Positions 36,701 to 53,291 of a DNA stretch of 64,000 nt are shown piece by piece; position 1 is the stretch's first letter; each line of letters opens with the position of its first letter. The DNA comes from Thermoanaerobaculia bacterium. Its GTDB lineage: Bacteria > Acidobacteriota > Thermoanaerobaculia > Multivoradales > J023. The notes below the pieces were generated by a model, which did not search any database, had not been told where the DNA came from, and saw only the letters and a list, made by a program, of their open reading frames with translations. Where the stretch lies: NCBI GenBank assembly GCA_030431255.1, contig JAUIJL010000016.1:62001-126000 (forward strand). Reading direction: 5' to 3'. Made by a program: the position numbers and the translations under genes.

Positions 36701-37011
36701 AAGGGACAGCCGGAATGGCATCAGGTTTCCTCTTTGCCGGGGCCAAAAGAGTGGTTGCCACACTTTGGAAAGTCGACAATCAAACGACAGCTATCCTCAT
36801 GGATCGTTTTTACTTTGAGCTCGTCCAGTCTCAAAAAACACCAGGCGAAGCTCTACGCGAAGCAAAGCTCAGCTTGATCGAATCCGGGAGCCCCTCCAAA
36901 TGGCGCGATTCGAGAAGTCGCTGGAGCTCACCACGGTATTGGGCAGCCTTCGTGTCGATCGGTGATTGGCAAAAACTCGGGGGTTTGGGCTCGGAATCAG
37001 AGATGAGTTGA
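33769..37011 (+). CDS. TPR-CHAT lipoprotein
   Basis: 1080 residues from a GTG (GTGCGACTAAAG), overlapping the anti-sigma gene end. Lipobox FIGC (Cys20), so lipid-anchored. Residues about 50-150 are a beta domain of the PPC type (DEQKLYPGQTHSYRLERI); residues about 180-560 hold TPR repeats (GNPEAISSHSRDAAELWLRL; ASLNNLGLLHWDEGAFDAAL); CHAT domain from about 660, catalytic His918 (IHLSSHGLS) and Cys968 (VVVSACESGKG), then the LFAGAKRVVATLWKV helix-strand typical of the family. Being placed outside the cytoplasm with ECF/anti-sigma partners, it may cleave the external domain of the anti-sigma factor or another envelope protein. The region is poorer in GC than its left flank by eye. Confidence 0.92.
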   Translation: MRLKRFGACSLWLGLLFIGCGQEKQEAKRKTSEPSLAGSSASPAEAETVAAATVDLGPLAAGPSDEQKLYPGQTHSYRLERIPSTWLSIKLEPRTGDPHLVLADLQGKEILRVSEVRGAQSEWLVAPPVLSAKQGSRVEQQLRVVSSSIETHYRLEIEQVSDPAEPLRQRAEAQRLTQLAHELFVVTGNPEAISSHSRDAAELWLRLGEKGRAAGVLEVLGRYLAQTEQQEETISVFRRAVELRSELRHERAAAADRNYLGLALRRLGRSSQAREQFERALDTFESVPHLSGIAASLNNLGLLHWDEGAFDAALQKYEEALKVLQAKEPTTPGTLSQRARILENQARVHLIQGSTSLARNLLRSAEALRKSAKDVRGLAETRLELVWADILQEDFEAALSVLEELRSAEMDSLQRLIFFDRLATTYEGLGRAQEAGRAYQRANEIIHRDKLWTAGIGVLVNLCRRSVEAADENRLEICRQSVEKARSFADPNRRVSASYWWARALESENRPKEALAAVREAAAQLETLRVGILGLHTRADFWEHRIRILRDSIALLMRLEVADPTQGHALQAFIMSEQIRARATMDRLRATTGASFGEADPFLKEEYLGLVRDIDRLTELLRSRDEVGSEHPLNRAPPDKLHEQLELKLSRLDHLESKIRGDSRASAWLFPSTQLTLDDFRSVLDPDTAVLSLLLGPSESIVWVLTRDSFDSRILSSAETLSNRAKPWLNAIESGESDTTTLHLGRSLANELFGAEDQLLSSIRDKKRILFVADGLFHRLPVSALPLESSTVESPRYVVHQFEIVHVPSLMVALEIRGRAENPLQDHLAFFGDTFYDEASESAFKGEAVPEKDLQAHFPLSRPSEQVLRMPYGLEEVRNVSRHFDPERSLIATGPLANRNHLLSTDLSSYAVIHLSSHGLSNLDHPELSALLLSEFEPGGRRLKRSRLRLFDLFRLQWPVELVVVSACESGKGRLSLEGTAGMASGFLFAGAKRVVATLWKVDNQTTAILMDRFYFELVQSQKTPGEALREAKLSLIESGSPSKWRDSRSRWSSPRYWAAFVSIGDWQKLGGLGSESEMS

Positions 37012-37110
37012 TCGGGGGGCAGATCAGACCCACCGCTTCTCTTCAAGATCGTGTCTATTTGCCTTAACCGGCCCCAGACTTTTTGTCTTGGGTCGAGCTA
37101 AGGAGAAGAT

Positions 37111-38361
37111 ATGCTCAAAACGGGCCTGAGGATAAGCTCGTTGGCCGTCTTGTGCTGTTTGCTTCCGATCCTCGCGACTCGAGGGCAAAGGGTCTGCCAA
37201 GACGATGTTCAAGAGTGTTGCCTTAAGATGGACGGTAAAGTGGATTCCGAATGTCTGGCCGCTCTATCTATCGTCCTTCAGGATACTAAGATTCACAACT
37301 TCAAAACGGATGGGGATCCCGATGAGCTGGCGGAGCTTTGGCTTCAGCAAGCGGTCTACCTCGCCCGAGCCGGCGAGATCGGCAGGGTTCGGCCGGCTTT
37401 GGAGATGGCCCTCACCCATTCGTGGACGGATCCGGCCCGCTCCGACGGAGAACCCTTCGTCTGGGAGCTTAAAATCTTCTTGGCAGGCAGCGAGCTATTC
37501 AAAAATAAGGCCTTTGAGGAGAATATATTTCTTTTCAGCAGTCTCGAAGAAAGCTTGAGGCCATGGTTGAACGGGCACGAAAACGCACGGCGGCTCAGCT
37601 CCGCTTCGAAGTTGGGTATGGCGATGGCCTACGACTCCCTGGGTTTGAGAAGGCAGGCGCTCCGGTTGGCCGAAGAGCTCATTCCCCTCGCCTCCCGATG
37701 GGGCCAGAAGCCAATCGTAGATGCAGGGCAGAAACTGCTTAATGCCCTGAGAATCCCGGAAGACGACAAGGATCCCTTGCTCGATCTTGCGACGACGGTT
37801 TCGCCATCCCTCAGCCCGGAGGCGGCCTCTACGTTCGATCTGATCTCGAGAGTCCTGCGGGCGGTGAAAGACGCTGATCGGACCCAGCCCGCCCCGGAGT
37901 CATTCAGCGAGCTCCTCGGGGATACGTCTGATTTGAAGGGCCCGGCTCTCTCTTTGTTGAAGTCCCTGGATGATTCGTTGCGGGCAAGTCTTGCAGGGGA
38001 AGAGGGGTGGCTCGACAACCTCGATAAGACCCTGAAAGGGTTGGTGCCACCTTCCATCCTATTTGAGGCCGAGACTCGCCACGCTCTCCTTTCGATCGAT
38101 GGCGGTCGAGAGCCACAAGGAATCGAAGGTCTCCACCGGGCCTTGAGACGGCTGCAGACTCGATTGGCACACTTGGCCTCTCGACCGGGTCTACGCGGCG
38201 GAATTCGGAAGGTGGATTCCAACCTCTTCGCCGAAGCCGTAGATGCGCTCGGCCGGAGTGACGGCAGGACCTTCGACTACGCCGAACAGGCCAAAGCCTT
38301 CAAACTGAGGTGGCAGCTCGGTGGGGAAGGAATGGCTCAGCGCTGTCGGCGAACGCTGTAA
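37111..38361 (+). CDS. Secreted helical protein of unknown function
   Basis: 416 residues. Signal peptide 1-27 (LATRG). A short Cys-rich N-terminal part (VCQDDVQECCLK, then SECL) could hold two disulfides. The rest is helical with TPR-like pairs (AELWLQQAVYLARAGEIGRV; YDSLGLRRQALRLAEEL) and a Ser/Asp-rich middle. ATG follows AAGGAGAAG. It lies 99 bp after the CHAT lipoprotein gene in the same direction and could be its cofactor or substrate. Its 3' end overlaps the 3' end of the convergent kinase gene by 25 bp. Confidence 0.83.
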   Translation: MLKTGLRISSLAVLCCLLPILATRGQRVCQDDVQECCLKMDGKVDSECLAALSIVLQDTKIHNFKTDGDPDELAELWLQQAVYLARAGEIGRVRPALEMALTHSWTDPARSDGEPFVWELKIFLAGSELFKNKAFEENIFLFSSLEESLRPWLNGHENARRLSSASKLGMAMAYDSLGLRRQALRLAEELIPLASRWGQKPIVDAGQKLLNALRIPEDDKDPLLDLATTVSPSLSPEAASTFDLISRVLRAVKDADRTQPAPESFSELLGDTSDLKGPALSLLKSLDDSLRASLAGEEGWLDNLDKTLKGLVPPSILFEAETRHALLSIDGGREPQGIEGLHRALRRLQTRLAHLASRPGLRGGIRKVDSNLFAEAVDALGRSDGRTFDYAEQAKAFKLRWQLGGEGMAQRCRRTL

Positions 38362-41309
38362 GGTTCTCGTCGACTGTAGAAGTTGCCGGAATTTCCCTTC
38401 GAATCCACGGCTTCAACGAAGAAATAGATCCATTTGACGTCGTCGTGGCTTCGAGGACTGATTTCGAGCTGGAAATCTCCATCGCGAGTTTCACTCAATC
38501 TCATCTTTTTGAAGTCCCCTCGCTTACCGAGCTTGACCCAAGCATGGGCGGTCGCAATGGGCGATGCGTCCTCAATCAAAACACGGAGCTCAAAGCTCGC
38601 TCCGCGAGTGTGTTGCACGCTTCGCAAAGCGATGACCGGGCCTTCTCGATCTCGACGCTCTTCCATGTCTTGCAGCTCGGATTTCAAGGCCTCAAACTCG
38701 GCCTCGAGCTGGGGAAGAGGCTTGGCACGCTCCAGCAGCCGCAGACCTTCCAGGGGACTTTCTTCACCGATCCTTTGGGCCCTTAGGAGCAAATCCTGCT
38801 GCCGCGTCAGCTCGGCGCGGAAGTCTTTGAGACTGCTGATGCGTTGGGTGACCTCGGGTGCCTCGGGGTAGATATTTCTGAGCCTTTCCAAAGTATCTAG
38901 AGCTTTGTCGGGATCTCCAGCGTGGCTTTGCAGGGACGCACGATTGAGAATCTCGGAAACAGCTGTTTCTCGGCGCTTTTGGGCTTGTCGATAATTCGGC
39001 AAGGTCTGAAGCAGCGCTAGGCTGGTTTTCAGCTGAAGGAAGAGATCGTCGCCGTCGGCCGCAGACCACATTGCATGGTAACGGCTCTTGATCTCCTTGG
39101 CCCTTTTCAGCTCATCGGCGATGCTGTCGAATATGCCCGGATCGCTCGCTTGGGCTTTCTCGATGGCTTCTACGAGCTGAGAGACTCGTTTGCCTCGGCC
39201 CTTAGCAAGGGCTTCGCGAAGTTGATCGGGAAGCTCCTCCAGCTCTTGTTTCTCTAGGGCTGCTTGCCATTCCGACTCTAGCTCAAGCTGAAGCTCGGTC
39301 CACAGAGCTCGCTCTTCAGGGCCCATGGAGAAGTCTTCTTTCAAGGCCTCAAGAAGCTCGGACGCCAACTCGTAATCCTGTTCATCTAGTGCGTTTTCGG
39401 CTTCTGTCAGCTCGTCTCGAATGGCCGGCTCTGGAGGTGGGGCCGGCTGGGGTGGTGCAACTTGCGGCGGAGGAGGAGGTTCCGGCTCGGGAGGAGGTTG
39501 AGAATGGTCGGGAATCACGGCCGACAACAGAAGGACCGATCCGATGCCTGAGATCACGAGACCTATCATCCACGAGCGCTGTTTCTTAGGAGAAAGCGAT
39601 CCCCAACGCCGTGATCCAATGCGGATGTTCTCCGCCAGTCGATCGAGCTGTAGTCTTGCGGTGCTCGCTAAAGGTGCCAAGCGCTGATTCCATTGGCGCT
39701 GAGACCAGGCCCTTGTCTTCTTCATCATTCGTGTGAATTGAAGGCCCGCCTCAGTCGCAAGTGACTGAAGCTCCGAGGCCATGTCACGGCTTCGGCGCGC
39801 GCCGACATTTCGATCCGGTAAAGGTGGGCTCCGCGCTAACTCAGGCTCGGGGGCCTCGACCCGTGGCTCGGGTATTGGAATCGGCGGAGCTTGGGCTGGA
39901 AGAGGTGGAACTAGGCCTGCGCTGTTCTCGAGCGTCGAAGTATTCGCTTTTTCGAGCGGTCGAGTGATGCCTTCGGTTTGATCTTCGGTCCCGGCAGGGG
40001 GTGTCGAGGCCGACGCGGTGGCCGGGAATGGAAGCGGCGTTTTTGTGGGGTCGGATCCGGCGGGCGGCGTAGGAGCGTCGGGTCGAAAGCCGGCAAGAAG
40101 GCTCTTCGTGGGCAGTCTTGCCGTCGTTTCGATCTCGTTGCGAATGGGAAGGGGTGCCGTCGCTTCGGGAGGATCAGCGTTGGGCTCCGCTCCGCCTCGG
40201 GTCGGTAGGACGGCGGTGACCTCGATCTCACTCTGCTTCGGCAGGATGGCGGTGGTGTCGCTCTCGTTTCGAAGGATCGGTAAGGGGGCCGTCGTCTCTG
40301 CGTCGTCTACGGGAAGCGCTCGCGCCGTCGGAGTGATCCCGAGACCGAATTGGGCGTCCAACCGGAATTGAGTGCTGCCCGTTTTCATGGGGACAGTGGT
40401 GGCGAGAAGATCAGGGGCTCGGGTGAAAGACTGCTGCCAGCCCGCGACGTCGAGAGGGTGATGGGCCTTGAGGGGAAGAATCGCTTCAAGGAATTGGGAG
40501 GCTGAATGGAAGCGGTCGTTGGGATCCTTTTCAAGTGCCTTCAAGGTGGCCTCACGGAGACCGCCCGGAATGCGCCGCTTCGGATCGAGCCGGTCGAAGG
40601 GAATCGGAGCCTTCGCGATGTGACCGTGCATGAGGTCCGGCATTGTCCTGCCGGGAATGGCGAGCTCACCCGTCAAGAGCTCGTAGAGCATGACGCCGAA
40701 TGAATAGAGGTCGCTTCTTGCGTCCAGCTTCGAAGCACCGTCGGTAAAGTGCTCTGGAGACGCATAGTAGAATTTGCCGAGAAACACACCTCCTGCCGTC
40801 ATCCGAGCTTCTGCGCCTCCTTTGACCACCCCTAGGTCCAAGAGCTTGGTTTCGGGCCGACCGTTGCCGTCTTTTACCAACATGAAGTTGTCGGGAGATA
40901 TGTCTCGGTGCACGAATCCTTGGGTATGCAAGAAGCTCAGGGCACCGAGAGCCTGGTCGGTGACCTCCAACGCCAAACCGATCGGCAGTGGGCCGTGGGC
41001 ATCCAACCATGCTCTCAGGGTGAAGCCATCGAGAAACTCCATTACAATATAGGCGGATCCCACGTCGTCCAGGGTCAGGTCGAAAACCCGCACGATGTTG
41101 GGATGGTAGAGACGAGTCGCGGCCTGGGCTTCCCGCTGCAGGCGAATTTGAGAATCTTTGTCGTTGGAAAGTCGGGCGTTCAGCGTCTTGATGACCCGGG
41201 TTTCGCCGAGCAAACGATGGCGGACTTTGTAGACAGCCCCCATGCCGCCTTCATGAAGCTTTTCGAGAATTTCATATTTTCCTTCAATTGTTTTTGACGG
41301 GGGTGTCAC
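38337..41309 (-). CDS. Transmembrane Ser/Thr kinase (PknB/HipA-unrelated, Hanks type)
   Basis: 990 residues from GTG 41309 (GGAGGAGG upstream). Kinase domain about 9-285 with all catalytic parts: Gly-rich loop LHEGGMGAVYKV, Lys41 (VIKTL), Glu60, HRD at 134-136 (VHRDISPDN), Asn141 and DLG (158-160) in place of DFG. Then a long Pro/Thr/Glu-rich juxtamembrane stretch with TAPLPI-like repeats, one TM helix at about 577-600, a Pro-rich spacer, a helical/coiled external region and a C-terminal beta domain (residues ~890-990, RGASFELRVLIEDASP). The external part resembles envelope-stress sensors. It shares the kinase layout of its divergent neighbour (same HRDISPDN and DLG). A sigma-70 promoter lies upstream (41414-41442). 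Substrates may include FHA-bearing partners downstream (inference). Confidence 0.92.
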   Translation of the reverse strand: MTPPSKTIEGKYEILEKLHEGGMGAVYKVRHRLLGETRVIKTLNARLSNDKDSQIRLQREAQAATRLYHPNIVRVFDLTLDDVGSAYIVMEFLDGFTLRAWLDAHGPLPIGLALEVTDQALGALSFLHTQGFVHRDISPDNFMLVKDGNGRPETKLLDLGVVKGGAEARMTAGGVFLGKFYYASPEHFTDGASKLDARSDLYSFGVMLYELLTGELAIPGRTMPDLMHGHIAKAPIPFDRLDPKRRIPGGLREATLKALEKDPNDRFHSASQFLEAILPLKAHHPLDVAGWQQSFTRAPDLLATTVPMKTGSTQFRLDAQFGLGITPTARALPVDDAETTAPLPILRNESDTTAILPKQSEIEVTAVLPTRGGAEPNADPPEATAPLPIRNEIETTARLPTKSLLAGFRPDAPTPPAGSDPTKTPLPFPATASASTPPAGTEDQTEGITRPLEKANTSTLENSAGLVPPLPAQAPPIPIPEPRVEAPEPELARSPPLPDRNVGARRSRDMASELQSLATEAGLQFTRMMKKTRAWSQRQWNQRLAPLASTARLQLDRLAENIRIGSRRWGSLSPKKQRSWMIGLVISGIGSVLLLSAVIPDHSQPPPEPEPPPPPQVAPPQPAPPPEPAIRDELTEAENALDEQDYELASELLEALKEDFSMGPEERALWTELQLELESEWQAALEKQELEELPDQLREALAKGRGKRVSQLVEAIEKAQASDPGIFDSIADELKRAKEIKSRYHAMWSAADGDDLFLQLKTSLALLQTLPNYRQAQKRRETAVSEILNRASLQSHAGDPDKALDTLERLRNIYPEAPEVTQRISSLKDFRAELTRQQDLLLRAQRIGEESPLEGLRLLERAKPLPQLEAEFEALKSELQDMEERRDREGPVIALRSVQHTRGASFELRVLIEDASPIATAHAWVKLGKRGDFKKMRLSETRDGDFQLEISPRSHDDVKWIYFFVEAVDSKGNSGNFYSRREPYSVRRQR

Positions 41310-41506: not shown

Positions 41507-44500
41507 ATGTCTCTGACTAAAGATTTTTTGGGAGATAACTACGAGGTCGTCCGCCGTCTCAGTGAAGGCGGAATGGGTATCGTTTACCTGGTTCGCCACC
41601 GGCATCTCGAAACCCTTCGGGTCGTCAAAGTTATCCGAGAGCAATATGCTCACAATCCGGAGCTTCAGGAGAGATTTTTAAGGGAAGCTCGGACGGCGAT
41701 TCGGCTCAGGCATCCGAAGATTGCCCAGATCTACGATTTTTCCATGACGGATGACGGTAGCGCCTTCATCGTCATGGAATATATCGAGGGCAGGACGTTG
41801 CAGCAGCTGTTGCGGGACGAGGGGCCGCCTCCTCTCGATCTGGCATTGGAGATCGGCCGCCAAGTCCTGGAAGCGCTCGACTATCTGCATGGGCAGGGGT
41901 ACGTGCATCGAGATATTTCCCCCGACAATCTCATGCTGACGAAGGATTTCGAGGATCGGCGCCTCGTCAAGCTGATCGACCTGGGTATCGCCAAACGCAC
42001 CGGCCAGGAAGCCGGAACCCAGCTGACTGGCCACGGAATGTTTCTCGGAAAAGCGAAATACTCGGCGCCGGAGGCTATTGAAGGTAAAGAGGTCGGAGCG
42101 GCCAGCGATGTCTACTCCTTCGGGGCTGTGTTGTACGAGCTTCTGACCGGTCTTGCTCCCTTTGATGGGCAGACGTTCTCGCAGTTGCTCGCTGCGCAGC
42201 TGTTCAAAGAGCCCAAACCGTTCTCCGAGTCCGATCCACAGGGACGAATTCCCGACATCCTACGCCGGTTCGTGTTGAAGACTCTTGCCAAAGATGCGTC
42301 CGAGCGGGGCGGCAGTGCCTCGGAGCTCGCCTTGCGCCTCGAAGAGATTAGGCGTCACAAAATCACGGTGGCCTCGCTATCAGAGACTGAGAAAACGCAC
42401 CACCTTTCGCCATCCGAGCTGGGGGTGGTGCCGCCCCCGGCCACGGAGCACGTGAAAGTCTCAGCGGGCTCGGAGCTCGAGGCATTGGCGGCGGCACACG
42501 TCTTGGTGGGTAAGGGGCAATTTCGAGAAGCTCGCGCCGAGCTCCGGCGGGTGTTGGACGACGATCCCGACCACACGGCTGCTCAACGCGAGCTGAAAGT
42601 GGTGGAGGAGATTCTGGAGCACCAGGCCACGGCTCGACGGCAGGGAGAAATTACCCGAGCCGCCGAGCGCATCGAGCGGCACCTGGACGGGGGTGAGCTG
42701 GAAGCAGCTCATGCCGAGCTCGATCAGGCCATTGCCTCCTTCGGCCTCGGGACCCGCCTCCAGGAGGTGCGAGATCGTTTGGATCAGGCCTTGGCCGAAC
42801 GCGACCGTCGGCGTCGTCGAAGCCGGATCGCTTCTCTGGTATCCGAAGCGGAATCCCTTCTGAAGGCAGGGCAGTGGGAGTCGGCGACCAAGACCCTGGA
42901 AGAAGTCGAAGCGATGCAGGAAGCCGATACCGAGATCGGTCGTCGTGTTGCCGGGCTCTTGGAGGCGATTCAAGCGAGAAAGGCGGAGGAAGCGGAGAGG
43001 GCATCCTCGATCCGTCGCCGGATTGCCAGCGGACATTTCGACGCCGTTCTGGATGCTCTGACCGAAGCCGAGTCACGGCTGGGGCATTCACCCTTGTGGG
43101 CGGAGCTACGGCACGAGCTGGAGGATGCCCGTCGACTCGAAGCCGAGCAAAGGCGGCAAGAGCTGGAGGCCAAAGTCGCTCAGGCTCAGCGATGGCTGGA
43201 ACAGGGTGATCTGACCTCAGCCGCCAATCTCATCGACACGGTGCTCGAATCCCGTCCGGACGATGTCGATGCGAATCGCCTGAAGGATCGAATCGCAGCC
43301 GAGCACCTAGAGCGCGAAGGCCTCCTGATCGCGGAGCAGGCCGAGGTCGAAATTCGAAACGGGGATCTCGAAGAAGCCCGCAAAATCCTGGAGCAGGGCG
43401 AGGCTCTACTCGGCGACCACCCCGCGTTGATCCGGGCTCTCGGCCGGTTGGCATCCGCGGAGCAAGAGGCACATCATCGTCGGACCGAGGAAGTTTTGAC
43501 CGCGGCCGCGCGATGCCTGGAAGCGGGGGCTCTCGACGCCGTCGACGAGCATTTGGTGGCAGTCCAACATCTCGGCCCTCTGGGAGAAAAGCAAGCTGCA
43601 CAATTTGACGTCATCACCCGGGAGCTGCGCGCGATTCGGGCAAGGCGCGAGGAAAAGGCGGTCGTCGAGCAAGTGCGGGAGCTTCTCGACTCGGGAGACA
43701 CGGTCACTGCCAGGCGTGAAGTGGAGAATCGACGTCCCGAAGCCCCTGGGGAGGCCTGGCTGGCCACGGAGCGTCGACTCGCGCAGGCCGAACGTGACGC
43801 TCGGATCGGTGACTTGCTCGACGAAGCTCACCGTCTTCGGAACTCTGAGCGATGGCGAGCGGCCTTGGCCAAAGTTGAGGAAGCCCTCGGGCTCGATGCT
43901 GAGCATTTCGCCGCGGGACGCTTGCAGCAGGAGCTGGAGGCGGAGCTTCGTCGCCGCGAGGAAGAGCGCCGTGAACGGGAGCTCGCGGACGTCGTCGAGA
44001 TCCTGACGAATCTGTTGGCAAAGGGTGATGTCCGGTCCGTCGGTAGGGGTCTTGAAACCGCCCGTCGCACTTTCGGTGAATCTGCGGAGTTGCTTCGGTT
44101 GAAGCAAAGTTATGAAGAGGCTGACGCGGCCCTGCGGGCTAGACGGGCGGAGCGCCTCCGGCAAGTCGTCGCGCGGGTCTGGAAGCTCGCTCCGGTGATC
44201 GCGGTTTTCAGTCTTTTGGTCATCGGTCTTTGGTGGTGGGCCGGCAGTGATCGACCGGTGACCGGTAACGCAGCGACACGACCGGATCCCTCAGCTGCTG
44301 GAAAGGTGGCCGCCTCGGTAGAGGAGCCTAAGATGCCTTCGGTGCCAACCGTGGTTTCCGATCAAGCGGGTTCCAGGGATCCGACCGAGAGAGTCGAAGC
44401 TCCTTCGAGGGCCGATCTTGCAACAGAGATACCGCAAGAGCCGTCCGTTCCCGTCGGTACGCAGACCGCGGAGACATCAGGGGCTGCGACGTCCGATCCA

Positions 44501-45337
44501 CCAGAGCCGAGTCTGACGACGACCTCGAGCTCCGGCACCGACGGCCCAACGGTAGTGGAGAGCGAGGGAGAACCCATCGCGATGACATCCCCGGGCATCA
44601 CGGTGCCGCCGACCGAGGTTTCGAGGCAGGCGGAACGCCCTCAAAACGAAAGCCGGCCGATGGAGATAGAGCCACCAGAATCCCGCCCGGACGTCGTCCC
44701 GGCTCCATCCCCTTCACCGAAGCTGCCCGCACCCGAGCCGGCAATGCTCGAGATCCAGGCTTCTCCTCGACCCGGCGCCACGGTCGCGATCGACGGCGGG
44801 GCACGCGAAACGCTCGATCGACGGCGCCGCTTCGAGTTGGAGCCGGGACGGCACCGATTGGTATTCCGTCTCGGACCGGAAGAGCACCGCGAGGAGCTGG
44901 AGCTCTCGGAGGGTCAGAGGCGACGAGTCCCGTTGCCCGACTGGATGCTGCGCGCTCCAGAGCCGCCCCCGGAAACCCCTGAGATCACACAAGCTCCGTC
45001 GGTCGACGAGCCACCGCCCTTCCGTCGCGGCGATACCATCACCGAGGTCGGCCCCGGAGTGGTGCCTCCTGAGCGAATGCGGCTTGCGCAGCCCGAATAT
45101 CCGCAACGGGCTCGGCAACGCCGGATCCGCCGCCCCGTGCGGGTGGAGCTGGCGGTTTTGGTCGACGAGAACGGTAGGGTGACTCGAAGTGTCGTCAAGT
45201 CGGTCGGGAAGAAAGAGCTGGGTTTTGAAGAAGCCGCCAAGGACGCGGCGAGCCGGTCGCTCTATCGTCCCGCCACCCGAGACGGTGTGGCTGGCAAGAT
45301 GTGGACTGATTTGGTGATTGAGTTCCGGCCTCGATGA
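41507..45337 (+). CDS. Transmembrane Ser/Thr kinase fused to a TonB C-terminal domain
   Basis: 1276 residues. Kinase domain about 10-285: LSEGGMGIVYLV, Lys41, Glu60, HRD 134-136, Asn141, DLG 158-160. Residues about 310-880 form a very long helical region rich in Glu, Arg, Leu and Ala with repeated units (AREELRR-like), likely TPR/coiled coil. TM helix about 890-912 (APVIAVFSLLVIGLWWW). External part: Pro/Thr/Glu linker, a PEGA-like beta module (about 1080-1145) and a C-terminal TonB_C-like domain (about 1188-1276, YPQRARQRRIRRPVRVEL). The TM helix lacks the His seen in genuine TonB, so energy coupling with ExbB is unlikely; the end may instead bind the TonB box of a receptor. Weak ribosome site. 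Convergent with a TonB-dependent receptor gene. Confidence 0.92.
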   Translation: MSLTKDFLGDNYEVVRRLSEGGMGIVYLVRHRHLETLRVVKVIREQYAHNPELQERFLREARTAIRLRHPKIAQIYDFSMTDDGSAFIVMEYIEGRTLQQLLRDEGPPPLDLALEIGRQVLEALDYLHGQGYVHRDISPDNLMLTKDFEDRRLVKLIDLGIAKRTGQEAGTQLTGHGMFLGKAKYSAPEAIEGKEVGAASDVYSFGAVLYELLTGLAPFDGQTFSQLLAAQLFKEPKPFSESDPQGRIPDILRRFVLKTLAKDASERGGSASELALRLEEIRRHKITVASLSETEKTHHLSPSELGVVPPPATEHVKVSAGSELEALAAAHVLVGKGQFREARAELRRVLDDDPDHTAAQRELKVVEEILEHQATARRQGEITRAAERIERHLDGGELEAAHAELDQAIASFGLGTRLQEVRDRLDQALAERDRRRRRSRIASLVSEAESLLKAGQWESATKTLEEVEAMQEADTEIGRRVAGLLEAIQARKAEEAERASSIRRRIASGHFDAVLDALTEAESRLGHSPLWAELRHELEDARRLEAEQRRQELEAKVAQAQRWLEQGDLTSAANLIDTVLESRPDDVDANRLKDRIAAEHLEREGLLIAEQAEVEIRNGDLEEARKILEQGEALLGDHPALIRALGRLASAEQEAHHRRTEEVLTAAARCLEAGALDAVDEHLVAVQHLGPLGEKQAAQFDVITRELRAIRARREEKAVVEQVRELLDSGDTVTARREVENRRPEAPGEAWLATERRLAQAERDARIGDLLDEAHRLRNSERWRAALAKVEEALGLDAEHFAAGRLQQELEAELRRREEERRERELADVVEILTNLLAKGDVRSVGRGLETARRTFGESAELLRLKQSYEEADAALRARRAERLRQVVARVWKLAPVIAVFSLLVIGLWWWAGSDRPVTGNAATRPDPSAAGKVAASVEEPKMPSVPTVVSDQAGSRDPTERVEAPSRADLATEIPQEPSVPVGTQTAETSGAATSDPPEPSLTTTSSSGTDGPTVVESEGEPIAMTSPGITVPPTEVSRQAERPQNESRPMEIEPPESRPDVVPAPSPSPKLPAPEPAMLEIQASPRPGATVAIDGGARETLDRRRRFELEPGRHRLVFRLGPEEHREELELSEGQRRRVPLPDWMLRAPEPPPETPEITQAPSVDEPPPFRRGDTITEVGPGVVPPERMRLAQPEYPQRARQRRIRRPVRVELAVLVDENGRVTRSVVKSVGKKELGFEEAAKDAASRSLYRPATRDGVAGKMWTDLVIEFRPR

Positions 45338-45428: not shown

Positions 45429-48380
45429 TTAGAAACGCAATCCCAGGGTCAGGCGGAAGTTTCTGGGGCTTTGAAGGTCAAATAGGGAGCGAGGCAGGCC
45501 GAAGCCGGCTCCTTCGAACGTCTCGGCACCGATCTGCTCCTGCTCGTCGGTCAAGTTGAAGATTTCGGCCTTGATCTCCACATCGCGGTCTCTGTTTTGA
45601 CCGTAGAGGAAGGCTAGAGCAAGGCTGAGGTCGAGCTGGAAGACATCCGGCAGCTGGTGCGCGTCCCGAGCGGTGGCGAAGCGTCTGATGGTGAAGTTGC
45701 CATCGGTAATCATGGGATAGGGAGTGCCGCTTTCAAATCGCGCGCTCGAGCCGACCGTGAAGTGCATCCGATCGGTGCTGAACCGATAGCTGCCGAAGAG
45801 CTTCAGCTGGTGCTCCCGCTCCCAGGATGCCGGACCCAGCCGGTTGGCAAGATCTGCCTGTAGGAACGCTTGAAAACCGGGATCCTGGACACCGGTCAAG
45901 TCGGAGAAGTCGGCAAAATCGTCGATGGCTTCGTTGGTGAAAAGATTGCCTTCGGTGTCACTCCAGGTGTAGGAGCCCAGAAATTGCCACCCATCTGAGA
46001 AGCGTCTCTTGATCATCAATTGAGCGGCCCGATACTCACGCTCTGCTGCTTCGATATTGGCGATGGTGTTTTCAAAACCGTTGGCGAGGAAGGCTCCGTT
46101 GTTGGGATCCCTGGCTACGGTCCCGTCGGGATTGAGAATCAGGTCGGCAGTGTAGACGTCATCCCAAAGGTCACCCCACTCGCGATGGACTAGATGAAAG
46201 CTGATTGAGGACTGGGAGCTCAGCTGATGCTCGAGCCCAAGCACGATCTCGTCTACATAGCTGGGGTCGAGCTCGGTGTTTGGAGGGGCGAATTGGAATT
46301 GGCCGAGTGGGCGCTCTAGGCCATCAATCCAGCACGGTGAGGTTGAGTCGGTTGGATCCTGGCTTGAGCATAGGACTCCATCGACGGAGCTCTCACCCAA
46401 AAACGGGGCCCAGATATAGTCGGTATAACCGGAAAAGAGCGAGCTGCGATCGAAGTTGTCGGTGTAGTTTTGTAGAAACGGTTCGTAGAAGCGGCCGAAC
46501 GACCCTCGGGCTAGGGTAGTTCCTTGCCCGCCGAGATCATAAGTAAACCCTAGACGAGGCGCGATCGTCCGAGCGTCCAGAAGTGCACTGCCCCCATCGT
46601 CTTGTGCCTGAATATCCTCAAAGCGCAGACCGAAATGGAAATGCCACTGCCCCAAAGTGAGCTGTTCGTCGATGAAGAGGCCGACGACTTCTTCTGTCGT
46701 TGTCCGAGCAGGGCGCTCCCAGAAATTCCACATCAAATAAGGCAGAGTCTGAAAGCCTCCGCTGGGAGTTGCGTTGGCGATGATATCGAGGAAGAGCTGG
46801 CCTTGTGTCGGTTGACCTGTCGTCGGATCGATTCCCTGCACCCCGGGAAATCTGAGATCGCGAAAGGATTCAGTGCTTTGATAGTCAACTCCGAGCTTCA
46901 GCTGATGACTTCGAGCTTCGGTTTCAAGAAACCAGTCGACCAGTAGATTCCCCTGCTCTCGTCGTCGCTCTTCGCGACCTTCCTGAGTGATGCCGTTAAA
47001 TAGGTGATTCCTGATGAGATCGTAGTGAGGAGCGCCGCCGGAAACACCTCGTGCGCGATCATTTAGGCGCTCCAAGTCACGGTCTTGATGCGCTGCCGTC
47101 ACTTGAAGCGATAAATTGGAACTCAGGATCGAGCTCCATTGGAGCTTGGAAAATGTGCCGTCCTGGTACCGGGATCCAGCTGCATGAGGGTCTCCAGGGA
47201 AAAGAAGGCCGTCAGCTCTGGACTCGTCGGATTGCTGGTCAGGGCGGTCGACCACGTTGGCTGAAGGATTGTCGTCAAAAGGGGAGAAATCGCCGAGCTC
47301 GGCTTCATCCGTGGTGAGCTGTCCTACGACGGTGTTGCTTTCACCGATCTGCCAAGTCAGCTTATAAGCTCCGCTGTCGCCCTCGATCCCTTGATCCCAA
47401 TAGGGTTCCGGGCCTTCGAACACTGGGCGAAAGAGGGAAGTTTCATTCTCTTCATAGGCGGCAGAGAACCATAGGTTTCCAGGAAAGATCGGTCCACCGA
47501 TAGAAAGCGCGGCATTGCCGAAGAGTTGGTCTTCGGTGGCGTTGGCGGCGTTGATCTCTTTGACCAAGGCATCTCCCGCGTTGCTAGGGGTTTCGTAGTC
47601 GCCGTTCCATTCAGGATTCGTCGCCACCCACCGGGCCAGGCCTGAAAAATCATTGCCGCCGGAGCGCGTCACTACATTGATGACCGCACCCGAAACCCTG
47701 CCGTATTCCGCGGAATAGCCTCCCGTAGCGACCTCCACTTCCTGCACGGCTTCGTGGCTCAAGTTGAGGCCGAAAAGACCGGTCGTGGGATCGGTGGTGT
47801 CGACGCCGTCCACCAGGTAAATATTGTGACTATTTAGAGAACCGCCGACATTGGGATTGCCGTCTTCACCTCCCGCGACCCCCGGTAGCAGCAGCGCCAC
47901 ACTTTGGTAGAAGCGCTCCACGGGCAAGCGGTCGAGAAATTCGAAATCGACCGTCGCTCCCAGGCTGGTGTCGTAGCGATCGACCAGGGGAGTCTGCGCG
48001 ACCACATCGACTTCCTCAGAAACGGATCGAGCGGTCGAGGAAGTCAAGGTGAGCTCGAGGCGATTGGTCTTCGCGATAGAGATCCTGGCTCGGCCTGCGG
48101 CGCTGAGACCGGCGGCGCCGAGCTCGGCGCGGACGGAGTAGTCGCCGATCGCCAAGGCTGGGAATCGGTATTTGCCTGCGGAATCGGTCACCACCGTTTT
48201 ATCGAGTCGTTCGCCTTCCAATTTGACGGTGGCGTCGGCGACCCCTTGGCCCTCACCATCGACGACGGTCACGATCAAGGTTCCGGTCTGTGTGCCGTCG
48301 GCGAGCATGGGCCCGGCTCCCAACAGAAGGAGCAGCACCAAAAGAATCAACGGGTCTTTGGAAAAGTGTTTCCCTCGCAT
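45429..48380 (-). CDS. Oar-like TonB-dependent receptor
   Basis: 983 residues from ATG 48380 (GGAGGA 8 nt upstream); the ORF's longer 53-residue extension has no ribosome site. Signal peptide 1-29. Residues about 34-115 are a carboxypeptidase-regulatory-like module (GTLIVTVVDGEGQGVADATV). Plug domain about 125-250 with DRLPVERFYQS and VDGVDTTDPTTG segments; the rest is a beta-barrel of many amphipathic strands ending in LTLGLRF, with a terminal Phe as required for BAM insertion. Such receptors of Acidobacteriota/Myxococcota take up or export large substrates using TonB energy. Neighbour to a kinase with a TonB C-terminal domain, a possible partner. Upstream region is AT-rich. Confidence 0.95.
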   Translation of the reverse strand: MRGKHFSKDPLILLVLLLLLGAGPMLADGTQTGTLIVTVVDGEGQGVADATVKLEGERLDKTVVTDSAGKYRFPALAIGDYSVRAELGAAGLSAAGRARISIAKTNRLELTLTSSTARSVSEEVDVVAQTPLVDRYDTSLGATVDFEFLDRLPVERFYQSVALLLPGVAGGEDGNPNVGGSLNSHNIYLVDGVDTTDPTTGLFGLNLSHEAVQEVEVATGGYSAEYGRVSGAVINVVTRSGGNDFSGLARWVATNPEWNGDYETPSNAGDALVKEINAANATEDQLFGNAALSIGGPIFPGNLWFSAAYEENETSLFRPVFEGPEPYWDQGIEGDSGAYKLTWQIGESNTVVGQLTTDEAELGDFSPFDDNPSANVVDRPDQQSDESRADGLLFPGDPHAAGSRYQDGTFSKLQWSSILSSNLSLQVTAAHQDRDLERLNDRARGVSGGAPHYDLIRNHLFNGITQEGREERRREQGNLLVDWFLETEARSHQLKLGVDYQSTESFRDLRFPGVQGIDPTTGQPTQGQLFLDIIANATPSGGFQTLPYLMWNFWERPARTTTEEVVGLFIDEQLTLGQWHFHFGLRFEDIQAQDDGGSALLDARTIAPRLGFTYDLGGQGTTLARGSFGRFYEPFLQNYTDNFDRSSLFSGYTDYIWAPFLGESSVDGVLCSSQDPTDSTSPCWIDGLERPLGQFQFAPPNTELDPSYVDEIVLGLEHQLSSQSSISFHLVHREWGDLWDDVYTADLILNPDGTVARDPNNGAFLANGFENTIANIEAAEREYRAAQLMIKRRFSDGWQFLGSYTWSDTEGNLFTNEAIDDFADFSDLTGVQDPGFQAFLQADLANRLGPASWEREHQLKLFGSYRFSTDRMHFTVGSSARFESGTPYPMITDGNFTIRRFATARDAHQLPDVFQLDLSLALAFLYGQNRDRDVEIKAEIFNLTDEQEQIGAETFEGAGFGLPRSLFDLQSPRNFRLTLGLRF

Positions 48381-48743
48381 ACGATAATTCCTCCATCGTG
48401 ATCGATTGAAGGGGAGATCCCCTCTAGCTCTTTTGAAACCTTTTTTCGAAAAAACGAGCTGAAAAACACGAGCTACAGACCACTCGCCGCGATCAGGCCG
48501 GCAAAGTGTCTGGATGGCTCTGTTCGACGAAAAAATCAATAAATCATCAATTGTGGATGTCTAGACCGACAACCGATCCCGTCGACGTATCGGTGACGTC
48601 CATGGGACCGATCCACAGGAGATGCAACGTTCAGGCGTTTGCCCGAATCATACCATGAATCACGCCTTCTGGGCTCTCGGGTGGTAAACTTCGAGAGCCG
48701 GACACAATCGAATTCGATACACTCAATTCAGGGAGCGCATTCT
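48381..48743. other. Divergent intergenic region (363 bp)
   Basis: Between the receptor gene (-) and FHA gene (+). Holds an AT-rich perfect palindrome TTTTTTCGAAAAAA at 48441-48454 (receptor side), an inverted repeat GGCTCTCG-N12-CGAGAGCC at 48672-48699 and a 12-bp palindrome ATCGAATTCGAT at 48707-48718 (FHA side). An in-frame extension of the FHA frame (48639-48743) has no ribosome site. No convincing sigma-70 pair was found. Confidence 0.55.
48672..48718. promoter_or_regulatory. Inverted repeats upstream of the FHA gene
   Basis: GGCTCTCG and CGAGAGCC at 48672-48679 and 48692-48699 (12-nt spacer), followed 8 bp later by the palindrome ATCGAATTCGAT (48707-48718). They end 25 bp before the ATG at 48744, so they lie in the promoter or mRNA leader; operator or attenuator both possible. 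The palindrome half-site ATCGAAT also occurs upstream of the NHLM operon. Confidence 0.5.
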
Positions 48744-49946
48744 ATGGCGCAAACGGTTCAGGAAATCGATATCTCTACCCTAGAGCGTCTGACGGAGCTT
48801 CAGCAAGATCGAGTCGTTTTGGTCGATCGAATCGGCCAGCTGAATACAGAGAAAGAGAATGTTTCGACCGTGGTCTATGGGCGAGTGCTCACCGACTACG
48901 AGCATCGTCTGCAGGCTATCGACGATGAAGCGATGCCACTGAGGCAACAGGCCGCGGAACCTTACGGTCTGTTGATGCATGGCGTCCGAAAGCTCGAGGC
49001 CGACTTAGACGAGCTGCGTTTGGAGCTCGAAGAGTTGGAGCTGAGACATCGGATCGGTGAGCTCGATGAAGAGACGGTCGCGGAGCATCGACAGAATCTT
49101 GGGGAGCGGGAGACCGACGTGCAGCAGCGTTTGCAGGAGATGCAGGAGCTGAGGCAGCGTTTTCTCGCCGCGGTAGACGGCCAGGAAGAGACGTTGATGC
49201 CCAAGCCGGCCGACGATTCGTCCGAGGAGGGGGTAGCGCTTGGCGAAGTCCCTGCCCCGGACGTTACCGAGGTCGAAGTAATGGACGTCGGCGAAACCGC
49301 CGATCCCATCGTCTCCGCCGAGGAGGAGGAAGGCGATCTCGCGGCCGACGAATCGGCGCAGACGGACGAGTCGCCGATTCTGGATCAAGAGGCTCTCCCA
49401 TCACCTGCCTTGGAGGAATCGATAGAGCCTGCCGCAGCTCCTTCGCCCGGCGAAGAGGAGCAGTCGTCCGATCGAGAGCAAGAACACGAGCATCGACCGA
49501 CGCTTCCCATTCAGTATCCCGAGTCTTTCGCTCAAGATGTCGCACCGTTTAGCGGCGATTCGGAGCTCGGTCGCACCCGTTTGGTGACCCAGCCCGTCTC
49601 TCCTCTTGCGGCCACCTCAATGATGCCCCTGGCCAGTCTCACTCGGGAGCCTGAAGGGGACAACGAGCATGCCGAAATCGAAGTTTTCCCTGTGGAGCCG
49701 TTTACGGCCATCGGTCGAACGGCGGACAATCAAATTCAAGTGGACGAGATTTCAGTGTCTCGACATCATGCCGAAATTCAGCTGAGCCATGGTGGGCTCT
49801 ACACTGTTCGTGATCTGGGATCGGCCAACGGAACGTTCGTCAACGGCAATACCATCACTTCACAAGATCTCCTACATGGAGACGTGCTGCAAATCGGCAC
49901 GGTCCGGTTCCGCTTCCGGATGGCCGGTGAGGAAGAGGATTCATAG
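48744..49946 (+). CDS. FHA-domain protein with N-terminal coiled coil
   Basis: 400 residues from ATG 48744 (GGGAG upstream). N-terminal ~150 residues are coiled coil (Glu/Leu/Arg heptads, KLEADLDELRLELEELELR). A long acidic Glu/Asp/Ser/Pro-rich linker follows (about 155-280), with several Thr-containing stretches that could be phosphorylated. C-terminal FHA domain about 310-395: IGRTADNQIQV, SVSRHHAEI and DLGSANGTFVNG carry the Gly-Arg, Ser-x-x-His and Asn residues needed for phosphothreonine binding. Cytosolic. It ends 3 bp from the convergent end of the FHA-fused ABC transporter gene. Likely a phospho-dependent adaptor for the kinases or the exporter. Confidence 0.92.
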   Translation: MAQTVQEIDISTLERLTELQQDRVVLVDRIGQLNTEKENVSTVVYGRVLTDYEHRLQAIDDEAMPLRQQAAEPYGLLMHGVRKLEADLDELRLELEELELRHRIGELDEETVAEHRQNLGERETDVQQRLQEMQELRQRFLAAVDGQEETLMPKPADDSSEEGVALGEVPAPDVTEVEVMDVGETADPIVSAEEEEGDLAADESAQTDESPILDQEALPSPALEESIEPAAAPSPGEEEQSSDREQEHEHRPTLPIQYPESFAQDVAPFSGDSELGRTRLVTQPVSPLAATSMMPLASLTREPEGDNEHAEIEVFPVEPFTAIGRTADNQIQVDEISVSRHHAEIQLSHGGLYTVRDLGSANGTFVNGNTITSQDLLHGDVLQIGTVRFRFRMAGEEEDS

Positions 49947-49949
49947 CCC

Positions 49950-52900
49950 TCAGCTGAGCTGACGGCGGGCTAGTCGGGCGAAGGCACCGTCTTTGGCCAT
50001 GAGCTCGTCGAACGAGCCTTGCTCGCGGATGACGCCGTGCTCCAAATAGCAGATGCGATCCGCATCGCGAATGGTGGACAAGCGATGGGCGATGACGATA
50101 CGAGTCGCCGCCAACTGGTTCATGCTTTCGGTGACGATCGCTTGGGCTCGGTTGTCGAGGGCGCTGGTGGCTTCGTCGAGAAGCAGAATCTTCGGCGCGT
50201 TGACCAGCGCGCGGGCGATCAACAAGCGCTGCCTCTGACCCCCTGAGAGACCCCCGCCGCCCTCACTGAGGTAGGTGTGCATCTGCATCGGCATGCTGCG
50301 GATATCGCGATCCAAACCGGCTTTATGAGCGGCCGCCCAAGCCTCTTCGACCGTGCGCGAGCTGGATCCGACGATATTGCGATAGATGTCGGCGGGTAGC
50401 ACCCGGCTGTCTTGAAGCACTACCCCCAGCTGTTGACGGACCTGGCGCAAGTCCAGCGAGGCGAGATCCTGACCGTCGTAGGTGACCCGCCCAGTTTCCG
50501 GGGCTTCGAATCCCAGAAGCAGGCGTAGAAGTGTGGACTTTCCGGACCCGGAGCCCCCCACGATGGCGACGAATTCTCCGGGTTCGATCTCGAGGCTCAA
50601 ATCGTCGATCACCCAAGGACCGTCCGCATATCGGAAGCGCACATTGTGAAGAGCGATGGCGCCGCGTAAGCGACCCGGTGCCGCTTTTTGGTCGTCCACC
50701 TCCGGCAAGGCCTCGAGAATGGGTTTCATCCGCTCGAATAGGGGGATGATTTTCAGCAGGCTGACACAGGCGTCGCTCAGTGCTTGTATGGCGGCGAGAA
50801 AAATTCCGAAAGCGGCGTTAAAGGCGAGAAATTCGCCGGTGCTGAGATTGAAATCACTATCCGCGGATTCTTTGAGATAGTACATCGTGCAGAATAAGGT
50901 GATGCTGGAAAAAATCGGAAATCCGGCGTTCAGCACCACGACCAGGTTGCTCATTCTCCCGACTTTGAAGCTGAATTTCCGTTGCCGCGCGAACCGTTGG
51001 CTCCACTCGCTGACAGCGTAAGGCTCGGCGCCGGTGACGCGCAGCTTGGCGACACCTGTGATCAGCTGAAGCACTAGGCCGCGCAGCTTGCCCAGCTCCA
51101 GAAGCTCTTTGCGCTGCAACCGCACCTGCAAGATGATCAGAACCGTATTCAGCAAGAAATAGAGCAGCGTCAGCAGGACAGCGACCAGCGCCAGTGTACG
51201 GCTGTAGTAGGCCATCTGCGCCACATTCAGCAGCGAGGCGGCAAATCCGAGAATCGATGCGACGCCCGCGCCGGCCACGAGCTGGCGCATTTGAGTCACC
51301 CCAGAGGCGCGATCGGCCAAGTCTCCGGCCGTAAATTCCCGAAAGAATGTCGTCGGCAAATTGAGCAGGCGATCCCAGATCGCCGCCTGGGCACGATAGT
51401 CCACCTTACCTTGGATCCGAAGCACAGCTACCTTTTGGGTCACCTGGAAGGCCGCGGTCATGAAAGCGATGAGGAACAAACCGATGGCGAACTGATTGAG
51501 CAAACCGTGCTCGGCTTGGGGGATGGCGTCGTCGAAGATCTTGCCCGTGAGCCACGGTGTCGCCACACTCATCAGGCCGAGGAGCAGACCCGAAAGGAGA
51601 ATCGTCGGGACCTCACTCTTGATGTCACCGAAGGCAAAACGGAAGAATTCCTTGCGTTCGACCTTTTCGTTGGGCAGCGGGGCGTAAAACGCGTAACCGA
51701 AACCCGACATCGAGAGGGCCGTCTCCGCATCGACCGATTCTCGGCTGCCGGCGACGGGATCGATGCATTCGTAGGCTCCGGGGCCCGTGGGCAACATGGC
51801 CACCGGCGATTCCGACTCTTCGTACCAGGTCAGGAACGGGCCTTGATCGTGGAGCCACCACTCGTCGCCGAGACGAATCCGCCGGACCCGGAATCCCGAC
51901 ACACAGGCGATGTCGATCAGGGCTTCCTCGAAATCGCGTTTCGGTCTCGGATTTGGATGGGCCTTGACCTCCAGCCCCAAATGTCGGCCTACCAGCTCGG
52001 CGGCGCGCAGAATCGGCGCCGCGTCGGATTCGAGCAGCGCGAGGTTCTTCCACACCTCGGCCCCGCCGAGCACCGAGCCGATGGCGGCTTGAGCAGCTCG
52101 CTGAGCTCGTTCTTCCTGTTGCACCTGCAAGTTGCGACGTTGAAATCCTTCGGCTTCTTCGAATTTGCCGGCGATTTTGGCGTATTCGCCGACAACGCGA
52201 TGAAACGCGTGGAGGCCGGCGGAAAAGTTGCCGCTGGGTAGTGTGTCGTAGGTGGAACCGGGCTCCAAGGTGAGGGATTGCTCGCCCAGGACTTCGATGC
52301 GGCTACCCGGGACCAGGGGAAAGGGCAGGCCCTCTACCTCTTTTGAAAGGCTGATGAGGTGGTTGAAGAGAAGCTCCGCCGACGGCATGGTGATCCACAC
52401 GGTTTCCTTGGCCTGGAGCACGGTTCCAGGGGAGACCTCGGTCGACTCGCCGGCGACGAGCTGGGCACGGTGTCCCGATTCCGTCGGGGCGTCTTGCCTC
52501 AATCCCGAAGCAAGGCCCTGAACCCATGCATCGACCAATTTCGAGAGCCGGTGACGGTGAGCCGAGACCAGCGTCAGTAGTCTCAATTCGTCGAGCTCGA
52601 ATCGAGCGAGCTTCGTTCCGGGTCTGCCGTCGGCGATGAAATCGAAGTCGAAATCGTAACCGTGTGCATCGATGCCGAAGAAACCTTGACCCTGTCCGAC
52701 TTCCAGCACCGGGCTTCGAGCACCGTCCTCGGATCGGGCGTAAACGTAGATCTTGCCGGACACGACCAGCCACATTTCTTCGGGATCGCCGAGCTCGATG
52801 GGGACGGCGGCCGCCATGACGACGCTTTCTCCGAGATCTTCCAGGGGCCTGAGCTCCTGAACCAGCTCCATCACCCGGTGCATTCCAGTGGTCGAAACCG

Positions 52901-53291
52901 CGAAAGTCTGAGCCGGCGGCACGAGGGTAGGGGAGGGCTGGGTCTTCGGCGACGGTAGGAGGCGGAGTGTGATGCCTCCCAAGGTAAAGGTCGTGCCGGG
53001 TTGAACGAGACCTCGCTCGACTCGACGCCCACCCATGAAAACACCGTTGGCGCTGCCGAGGTCGAAGACCTCTACAGCACCGTTTTCACGTATCTCGATC
53101 CTCGCGTGGCGTCTCGAGATGCTGGGTGCCGGCAGGGTGACGTCGCATTCCGGCTCACGGCCCACGGAGGAGTCTTGTCTCAAAACGAGCTCCAAGCCAC
53201 TGAGGTTGTGGACCTCCGCGGCTTCGATTCGCAAACGGACCTCCGACGGTGAATCGGGATCTGCAGCAGGGTCGGAGTCGATGGGTCGCAA
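49950..53291 (-). CDS. NHLM-type ABC transporter (second type) with N-terminal FHA domain
   Basis: 1113 residues from a TTG at 53291 (an in-frame stop lies two codons upstream). FHA domain about 20-112: SVGREPECDVTL, SISRRHARI, DLGSANGVFMGG, all key residues present. Next, a cyclic-nucleotide-binding-like beta-barrel region (about 150-330, WLVVSGKIYVYA), a linker domain, then six TM helices (about 575-850) and an ABC domain: Walker A GGSGSGKST, signature LSGGQRQR, Walker B ILLLDEATSALD. No C39 peptidase. This is the NHLM 'ABC2' type with sensory-like N-terminus; the FHA at the very start is an extra part. Works with the C39-ABC encoded just upstream; phospho-Thr binding by the FHA could gate export (inference). 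Confidence 0.93.
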   Translation of the reverse strand: MRPIDSDPAADPDSPSEVRLRIEAAEVHNLSGLELVLRQDSSVGREPECDVTLPAPSISRRHARIEIRENGAVEVFDLGSANGVFMGGRRVERGLVQPGTTFTLGGITLRLLPSPKTQPSPTLVPPAQTFAVSTTGMHRVMELVQELRPLEDLGESVVMAAAVPIELGDPEEMWLVVSGKIYVYARSEDGARSPVLEVGQGQGFFGIDAHGYDFDFDFIADGRPGTKLARFELDELRLLTLVSAHRHRLSKLVDAWVQGLASGLRQDAPTESGHRAQLVAGESTEVSPGTVLQAKETVWITMPSAELLFNHLISLSKEVEGLPFPLVPGSRIEVLGEQSLTLEPGSTYDTLPSGNFSAGLHAFHRVVGEYAKIAGKFEEAEGFQRRNLQVQQEERAQRAAQAAIGSVLGGAEVWKNLALLESDAAPILRAAELVGRHLGLEVKAHPNPRPKRDFEEALIDIACVSGFRVRRIRLGDEWWLHDQGPFLTWYEESESPVAMLPTGPGAYECIDPVAGSRESVDAETALSMSGFGYAFYAPLPNEKVERKEFFRFAFGDIKSEVPTILLSGLLLGLMSVATPWLTGKIFDDAIPQAEHGLLNQFAIGLFLIAFMTAAFQVTQKVAVLRIQGKVDYRAQAAIWDRLLNLPTTFFREFTAGDLADRASGVTQMRQLVAGAGVASILGFAASLLNVAQMAYYSRTLALVAVLLTLLYFLLNTVLIILQVRLQRKELLELGKLRGLVLQLITGVAKLRVTGAEPYAVSEWSQRFARQRKFSFKVGRMSNLVVVLNAGFPIFSSITLFCTMYYLKESADSDFNLSTGEFLAFNAAFGIFLAAIQALSDACVSLLKIIPLFERMKPILEALPEVDDQKAAPGRLRGAIALHNVRFRYADGPWVIDDLSLEIEPGEFVAIVGGSGSGKSTLLRLLLGFEAPETGRVTYDGQDLASLDLRQVRQQLGVVLQDSRVLPADIYRNIVGSSSRTVEEAWAAAHKAGLDRDIRSMPMQMHTYLSEGGGGLSGGQRQRLLIARALVNAPKILLLDEATSALDNRAQAIVTESMNQLAATRIVIAHRLSTIRDADRICYLEHGVIREQGSFDELMAKDGAFARLARRQLS

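Follow-up and report, generated by a model that had tools for sequence, protein, structure and literature searches.

A Hanks-type Ser/Thr kinase ending in a TonB C-terminal domain and encoded beside a TonB-dependent receptor in Thermoanaerobaculia: a candidate receptor-coupled kinase

A 64,000-nucleotide stretch of the genome of Thermoanaerobaculia bacterium (assembly GCA_030431255.1, contig JAUIJL010000016.1, positions 62,001 to 126,000 of the forward strand; hereafter the window) encodes a 1276-aa protein at 41507-45337 (+) that combines an N-terminal Ser/Thr kinase with a C-terminal TonB_C domain, beside the gene of a TonB-dependent receptor. We propose, with a probability of about 0.55, that the window protein is a receptor-coupled transmembrane Ser/Thr kinase that would read the loaded receptor via TonB_C. 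The adjacency of kinase and receptor genes on which this proposal builds is not a matter of chance, because the pairing is conserved across a receptor clade.

Results

The N-terminal domain of the window protein matches the Pkinase profile and keeps all four catalytic residues (K41, D136, N141 and D158), which identifies it as a Hanks-type Ser/Thr kinase. At the other end, TonB_C is matched with 36.7 bits (Pfam PF03544, E 5.7e-9, cut-off 24.6) and, over residues 1196-1275, tonB_Cterm with 35.0 bits (NCBIfam, cut-off 27.1). Between the two domains lie tetratricopeptide repeat (TPR) matches (Pfam), the sole hydrophobic segment of the protein, and a Pro-rich stretch upstream of TonB_C (18% Pro over residues 913-1094). 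The stalk that precedes the hydrophobic segment was modeled from the single sequence with AlphaFold2 (AF2) as about 20 helices, alternately short and long (mean predicted local distance difference test, pLDDT, 81; predicted template modeling score, pTM, 0.44), and looks like TPR-like repeats rather than one coiled coil. An earlier note on this DNA had described a kinase, a very long helical stalk, a transmembrane (TM) helix without a coupling His and a TonB_C-like end in one protein. Profile searches, hydrophobicity and AF2 bear out this architecture, including the absence of the His and the identity of the C-terminal end; the stalk is helical as described, although its predicted form is that of TPR-type repeats.

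The C-terminal end was compared with solved structures both by sequence and by fold. A sequence search with the last 90 residues retrieved seven distinct sequences, all of them TonB (best E 0.0023). A model built from an alignment of 45 rows has a mean pLDDT of at least 90 in each ten-residue block from model residue 91 on, and its first 40 residues (from residue 1094) are of low confidence, with a mean pLDDT in the 50s. The top fold matches of this model are TonB C-terminal domains, several of them receptor-bound (Foldseek, VIA), and include TonB bound to TbpA, FoxA and BtuB with Z of 10.2, 10.1 and 9.4, respectively; the receptor-complex structures matched are 9dc4, 6i97 and 2gsk. In the FoxA-TonB complex described in PMC6699858, residues 332-337 of TonB form the pairing with the TonB box of FoxA, which siderophore binding releases. 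Since residues 251-339 of 6i97_D align onto model residues 92-183 (VIA), the matching strand is the C-terminal strand of the window protein. The predicted model has the TonB C-terminal fold, including its last edge strand.

The adjoining receptor contains CarboxypepD_reg, Plug and OMP_b-brl_4 domains (Pfam). Its translation likely starts at M54, near position 48380, and a signal peptide is then apparent by eye. As the earlier note had stated, the receptor gene is directly convergent with the kinase gene, the two stop codons being 91 nt apart (97 nt between the last sense codons). Two of 14 related receptors were scanned with Pfam for an STN signaling domain, that of the window (E up to 1) and that of locus L044 (E up to 0.001; loci, genomes and contigs are given by our own handles), and neither gave a hit. 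A TonB-box-like segment lies at one position of an alignment of 11 receptors of this clade, in all 11 rows by eye and in ten by pattern.

We surveyed 40 genomes of Acidobacteriota, namely the genome of the window and 39 relatives, using the last 381 residues of the window protein as the query and scoring at most 48 candidates per genome. The query was matched in 38 of the 40 genomes. Seventy-two regions taken from the matches plus the window gave 73 loci, in which genes and profiles were called in this analysis; short-frame matches (stand-alone TonBs and contig ends) mostly fell outside the 72 regions. This survey of kinase-TonB fusions, which the earlier note had suggested, yielded 49 genes that encode both a kinase domain and TonB_C. 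The 10.2-Mb genome of the window itself contains 34 Plug-domain places and 12 TonB_C places; four of the latter belong to proteins that also have a kinase domain (one at 31.5 bits, slightly below the cut-off of Pfam). Beyond the 40 genomes, TonB_C profile matches occur in 147 of 148 genomes of the class (E 1e-8, stand-alone TonBs included), and a kinase was found in 17 of 19 hand-picked long-frame hits from the class. A sample of the phylum had TonB_C matches in 240 of 297 genomes (E 1e-15, all kinds of TonB_C); the 29 loci examined from it contained 21 TonB_C genes, 14 with a kinase, four of these outside the class. The kinase-TonB_C fusion is therefore broadly distributed. The literature searched, with most subscription journals outside it, gave no account of the fusion or of its pairing with a receptor; a survey of ECF43-kinase periplasmic domains, cited in PMC13147305, may mention TonB_C.

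A coupling His in the TM helix is a feature of energizing TonBs. A hydrophobic segment lies between the kinase and TonB_C in 48 of the 49 fusion proteins (the exception, L101, is borderline), and the TM His is present in none of the 49, compared with seven of the 17 TonB_C proteins in which no kinase was detected. These seven are 238-288 aa long, and three are encoded in the genome of the window (L004, L007 and L010).

The window receptor belongs to a clade of 14 loci in nine of the 40 genomes (at least 508 bits and at least 42% identity, the next match having 199 bits). Among the 148 class genomes the same nine carry clade receptors, and two more give intermediate matches (G041 and G045, 486 and 441 bits), which were left out of the 14. 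The metagenome-assembled genomes (MAGs) with close relatives of the receptor are labeled Acidobacteriota/Acidobacteria, Thermoanaerobaculia, Deltaproteobacteria (one MAG) and uncultured bacterium. A kinase-TonB_C gene adjoins 12 of the 14 clade receptors, directly or with one open reading frame (ORF) between; the G021 clade receptor is itself split across two contigs. The 13th receptor (G006:C396) lies 182 nt from a contig end. Translation of these bases gives a kinase-type N-terminus, and its final six residues are identical to the six with which a truncated kinase-TonB_C protein on G006:C146 begins. This identity makes it very likely, judging from the contig sequences, that an assembly break split this pair. 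The 14th receptor (G002:C54) has a kinase-TonB_C gene (L067) about 17.5 kb away. The TonB_C domain of L067 is closest to that of L100, just as the G002:C54 receptor is closest to the receptor of L100; its kinase shares the highest identity with that of L100 (57%, next 56%), yet it joins L101 in the tree. Conservation of a receptor neighbor, on which the earlier note had staked its idea, thus holds for 12 of the 14 clade receptors, or 13 with the split contig.

In a control limited to flanks of about 1.5 kb, a kinase or TonB_C gene was present at six of nine clade loci and at none of 21 other receptor loci (L114-L134). In ten of the 12 pairs the two genes share a strand in an operon-like order, the receptor gene being upstream; five of these pairs have no gene between and a gap of 5-54 nt, and four have the gene of an extracytoplasmic function (ECF) sigma factor between receptor and kinase. 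The remaining two pairs, that of the window and that of L101, are convergent, and both are from the genome of the window, where a clade receptor is the direct neighbor of three of the four kinase-TonB_C genes. A wider profile built from 30 receptors detected no additional receptor in the vicinity of the 49 genes, save one weak match (87 bits) to a 2929-aa ORF beside L100.

The TonB_C tree (101 columns) places the 12 receptor-linked domains together with L033, L062 and L067 in one 15-row clade (support 96/88). Clade receptors adjoin 12 of these 15 genes versus none of the 34 outside (Fisher 4.9e-9, with rows that are not independent). Of the 16 rows in which no kinase was detected, 13 are separated (100/100) from the kinase-type TonB_C group as a whole, and three fall inside it. 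In the kinase tree, a 14-row clade (100/98) consists of 11 receptor-linked kinases, L033, L067 and L084, which has no TonB_C. The window kinase is outside it and groups with L062, L073, L088 and the neighboring kinase of the window (100/99); joining it with the receptor-linked kinases was rejected (approximately unbiased, AU, test, p 0.0002, or p 0.0025 if L084 is allowed in). Joining the TonB_C domains of the window protein and its kinase relatives L062, L073 and L088 was not rejected (AU p 0.051), and in the receptor tree the window receptor is outside the other 13 (97/97). From these two results, early-branching co-divergence of the window pair would be as good an explanation as a domain swap in the window protein; we considered a swap and do not claim it, nor do we claim co-divergence, since both appear to fit equally. 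Distances correlate over 13 pairs with r 0.79 for receptor and TonB_C and likewise 0.79 for receptor and kinase. Without near-copies (11 pairs) the values are 0.55 (p 0.007) and 0.69 (p 0.0016), and without the window (12 pairs) they are 0.80 and 0.93, respectively.

The fusion proteins also differ in their catalytic residues. All four are kept in the 15 kinases of the TonB_C clade, and they are kept in ten of 11 kinase-TonB_C proteins with long N-terminal extensions. In the remaining class, at least three of the four are missing from 21 of 23 proteins as aligned here. Catalysis is thus predicted to be kept where the receptor is. An MltG-like gene (the query gene is YceG by Pfam) lies within two genes of 16 of the 23 members of the latter class, versus none of the 26 other kinase-TonB_C genes. 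This MltG-linked class (L099, L068 and others) has the character of pseudokinases with a TonB_C end.

ECF sigma genes occur beside five of the 12 pairs and at the split pair: besides the four that lie between receptor and kinase, one follows the kinase, and that of the split pair is convergent. Three of the six were scanned with Pfam, and all three are PF07638. All six linked sigma factors carry HTLQPTALVHEA, in which QPTA replaces the acidic DxxD of ordinary ECF sigma factors; QPTA may be general to PF07638. In ECF43 sigma factors, a group activated by kinases as described in PMC13147305, uncharged residues that include a conserved Thr (QTTA) take the place of DxxD, and these sigma factors are phosphorylated by kinases in relatives of Xanthomonas and Vibrio. 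The sigma factors of the sister loci share the ECF43-like features, a non-acidic, Thr-bearing motif in region 2.2, as judged by the motif alone. Genes with DUF1501 and DUF1800 lie near four of the six sigma loci (L044, L039, L076 and L033) and at no other of the 73 loci (phmmer 1e-5).

The features of the window are listed in Table 1. A different ECF sigma gene is located about 8.5 kb from the kinase gene, in a same-strand run that precedes the two kinases of the window. The gene of the second kinase runs divergently from that of the first, and the kinase domains of the two belong to one small clade; beyond TPR-type hits, the C-terminal part of the second kinase gave no significant Pfam match. 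On the far side of the receptor are an FHA protein and an NHLP-type exporter subunit with an N-terminal FHA domain. By their position in the window, these two would place phosphothreonine readers at hand next to the receptor, and phosphothreonine control of lanthipeptide-type export is possible. The row of genes that follows is, by its predicted products, a lanthipeptide-type production and export cluster. Pfam scans of 15 window proteins gave no FecR-like anti-sigma factor, and the kinase-TonB_C protein itself has no domain of that kind.

Table 1. Positions of the kinase, receptor and neighboring features in the window
Feature	Position	Strand	Basis
Same-strand run before the two kinases: ECF sigma (acidic region 2.2), further protein, TPR-CHAT, secreted-looking protein	32253-38361		
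Second kinase, divergent; TM near residue 581	38337-41309	-	
Ser/Thr kinase domain, residues 12-269	41540-42313	+	Pfam Pkinase 152.7 bits; residue check
Predicted cytoplasmic TPR-like helical repeat stalk, ~residues 322-890	42470-44176	+	TPR matches; single-sequence AF2
Single TM helix, residues 894-912, no His	44186-44242	+	Hydrophobicity
Predicted periplasmic Pro-rich linker and low-confidence stretch, residues 913-1194	44243-45088	+	Composition; pLDDT
TonB_C, residues 1195-1274; last strand corresponds to the TonB-box-pairing strand of solved TonB complexes	45089-45328	+	Pfam, NCBIfam, fold; PMC6699858
TonB-dependent receptor, CarboxypepD_reg, Plug and OMP_b-brl_4; probable start ~48380	45429-48539	-	Pfam
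TonB-box-like segment SEEVDVVAQ, receptor residues 174-182, between CarboxypepD_reg and Plug	47994-48020	-	Alignment of 11 clade receptors
FHA protein beside the NHLP-type exporter	48639-49946	+	
NHLP-type ABC exporter subunit with N-terminal FHA domain	49950-53291	-	TIGR03797, 886 bits
Row of NHLP peptidase/ABC subunit, HlyD-type adaptor, two TolC-type (OEP) proteins, GNAT, LanM-like synthetase (DUF4135 and LANC_like)	53306-63983		

Discussion

In the mechanism that we propose, the window protein would adopt an N-in/C-out topology, with the TonB_C end facing the periplasm. Ligand would make the TonB box of the receptor available, and TonB_C would dock on it. Without the TM His of energizing TonBs, the protein would read the receptor rather than power it. 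Docking may act via the linker, TM helix and stalk to alter how the kinase clusters or folds into its active shape; phosphorylation of cytoplasmic targets would then carry the signal inward. At the sister loci the target is probably the co-encoded ECF sigma factor, and in the window, where FHA-domain proteins adjoin, other targets are more likely. The complete chain, in which a TonB-derived domain freed from energy coupling reads TonB-box exposure and the kinase relays it to an ECF sigma factor (sister loci) or to FHA proteins including a lanthipeptide-type exporter (window), is put forward tentatively, and we regard it as somewhat doubtful as a whole.

The proposed arrangement resembles known systems in different parts. 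Classical cell-surface signaling, according to PMC11637429, combines a signaling domain of the receptor with an anti-sigma factor. As in FecA-FecR-FecI and FoxA-FoxR, a TonB-dependent receptor is found with an inner-membrane protein that is predicted here to cross the membrane once and to have its C-terminal reader in the periplasm, and an ECF sigma factor is co-encoded in some loci. Here, however, the putative reader is a kinase with TonB_C and not an anti-sigma factor, the two receptors scanned gave no STN hit (CarboxypepD_reg, Plug and barrel), and no FecR was found among the neighbors scanned. By analogy, the best reading is cell-surface signaling in which a kinase would replace FecR. With PknS-EcfK of Xanthomonas citri, PknT-EcfP of Vibrio parahaemolyticus and ECF43 (PMC13147305), the sister loci share a transmembrane Hanks-type kinase and an ECF sigma factor whose DxxD has given way to a Thr-bearing non-acidic motif. 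They differ in the periplasmic TonB_C and in the receptor gene within the unit, phosphorylation is predicted here, and the window pair has no such sigma factor. The TonB energy transducer has the same TM helix, Pro-rich linker and TonB_C fold, and probably the same N-in/C-out topology, but the window protein has an N-terminal kinase and stalk, no TM His and a TonB_C domain of a separate clade. PknB-type Hanks kinases with TPR or PASTA parts likewise have a kinase domain and a single TM helix; in the window protein, in contrast, TonB_C is the likely sensor and the long TPR-like stalk is on the predicted cytoplasmic side.

Several observations weigh against a receptor-coupled kinase. The contact between TonB_C and the receptor is one that we infer. 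The G002:C54 receptor has no kinase within 10 kb, the intermediate receptors of G041 and G045 have no kinase neighbor on their short contigs, and L062 is inside the TonB_C clade yet has no recognized receptor in its locus. The two of 14 receptors that were scanned gave no STN hit, and no QPTA-type ECF sigma factor was recognized in the window. The distance correlation is also expected where linked genes are simply inherited together, and it is as good between receptor and kinase as between receptor and TonB_C. In addition, 34 of the 49 kinase-TonB_C genes are not part of the receptor-linked TonB_C clade, and all 34 lack a neighboring receptor of this kind; a receptor partner can thus not be presumed for a kinase just because it has TonB_C. 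To judge from these gene neighborhoods, TonB_C on kinases has at least one other use.

This last point leads to the strongest alternative, in which TonB_C is a general envelope-sensing or dimerizing module for peptidoglycan or another partner, and the receptor is a co-regulated output that it does not touch. Kinase-type TonB_C domains on receptor-less kinase classes, one of them MltG-linked, would be explained in this way; linked regulators and targets also co-diverge without contact, and an operon order with an ECF sigma factor suits a regulated transporter. Against this, the receptor-linked TonB_C domains form one clade that is nearly one-to-one with one receptor clade. Moreover, the window kinase is of another lineage while its TonB_C is in the receptor-linked clade, which would be odd if TonB_C were irrelevant to the pairing; the reservations on a domain swap given above apply here too. 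We consider a general envelope module rather unlikely, though worth serious attention. The opposite direction of control, in which the fusion regulates transport by holding or releasing the TonB box according to its phosphorylation state, shares the anatomy of a receptor-reading kinase and agrees with the intact catalytic residues of all receptor-linked kinases; the ECF sigma genes in some operons point inward, and as the sole evidence that separates the two directions they make control from the cytoplasm to the receptor improbable. That an ordinary multi-domain kinase and a receptor are chance neighbors is very improbable: apart from the window pair, L101 in the same genome is the sole convergent case among the 12 pairs, but 12 to 13 of the 14 receptors are paired, and three of four kinase-TonB_C genes adjoin a clade receptor in a genome with 34 Plug places in 10.2 Mb. 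Finally, that the protein is a further energy transducer, a TonB to which a kinase has been joined, is hardly credible despite the TonB-like order of TM helix, Pro-rich stretch and TonB_C, as the TM His is found in none of the 49 fusions and in seven TonB-sized proteins, three of which the same genome encodes.

Known signaling from TonB-dependent receptors to the cytoplasm proceeds via STN domains and anti-sigma factors. If the window protein is a receptor-coupled kinase, transporter loading would be converted to phosphorylation by a kinase that plugs into the TonB box, which would provide a route for signaling by STN-less receptors. One class of bacterial kinases whose inputs are not known would also gain a defined sensor. 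The receptor-kinase pairs are modular and testable in vitro. The near one-to-one pairing with one receptor family suggests a signal path from the outer membrane to a kinase.

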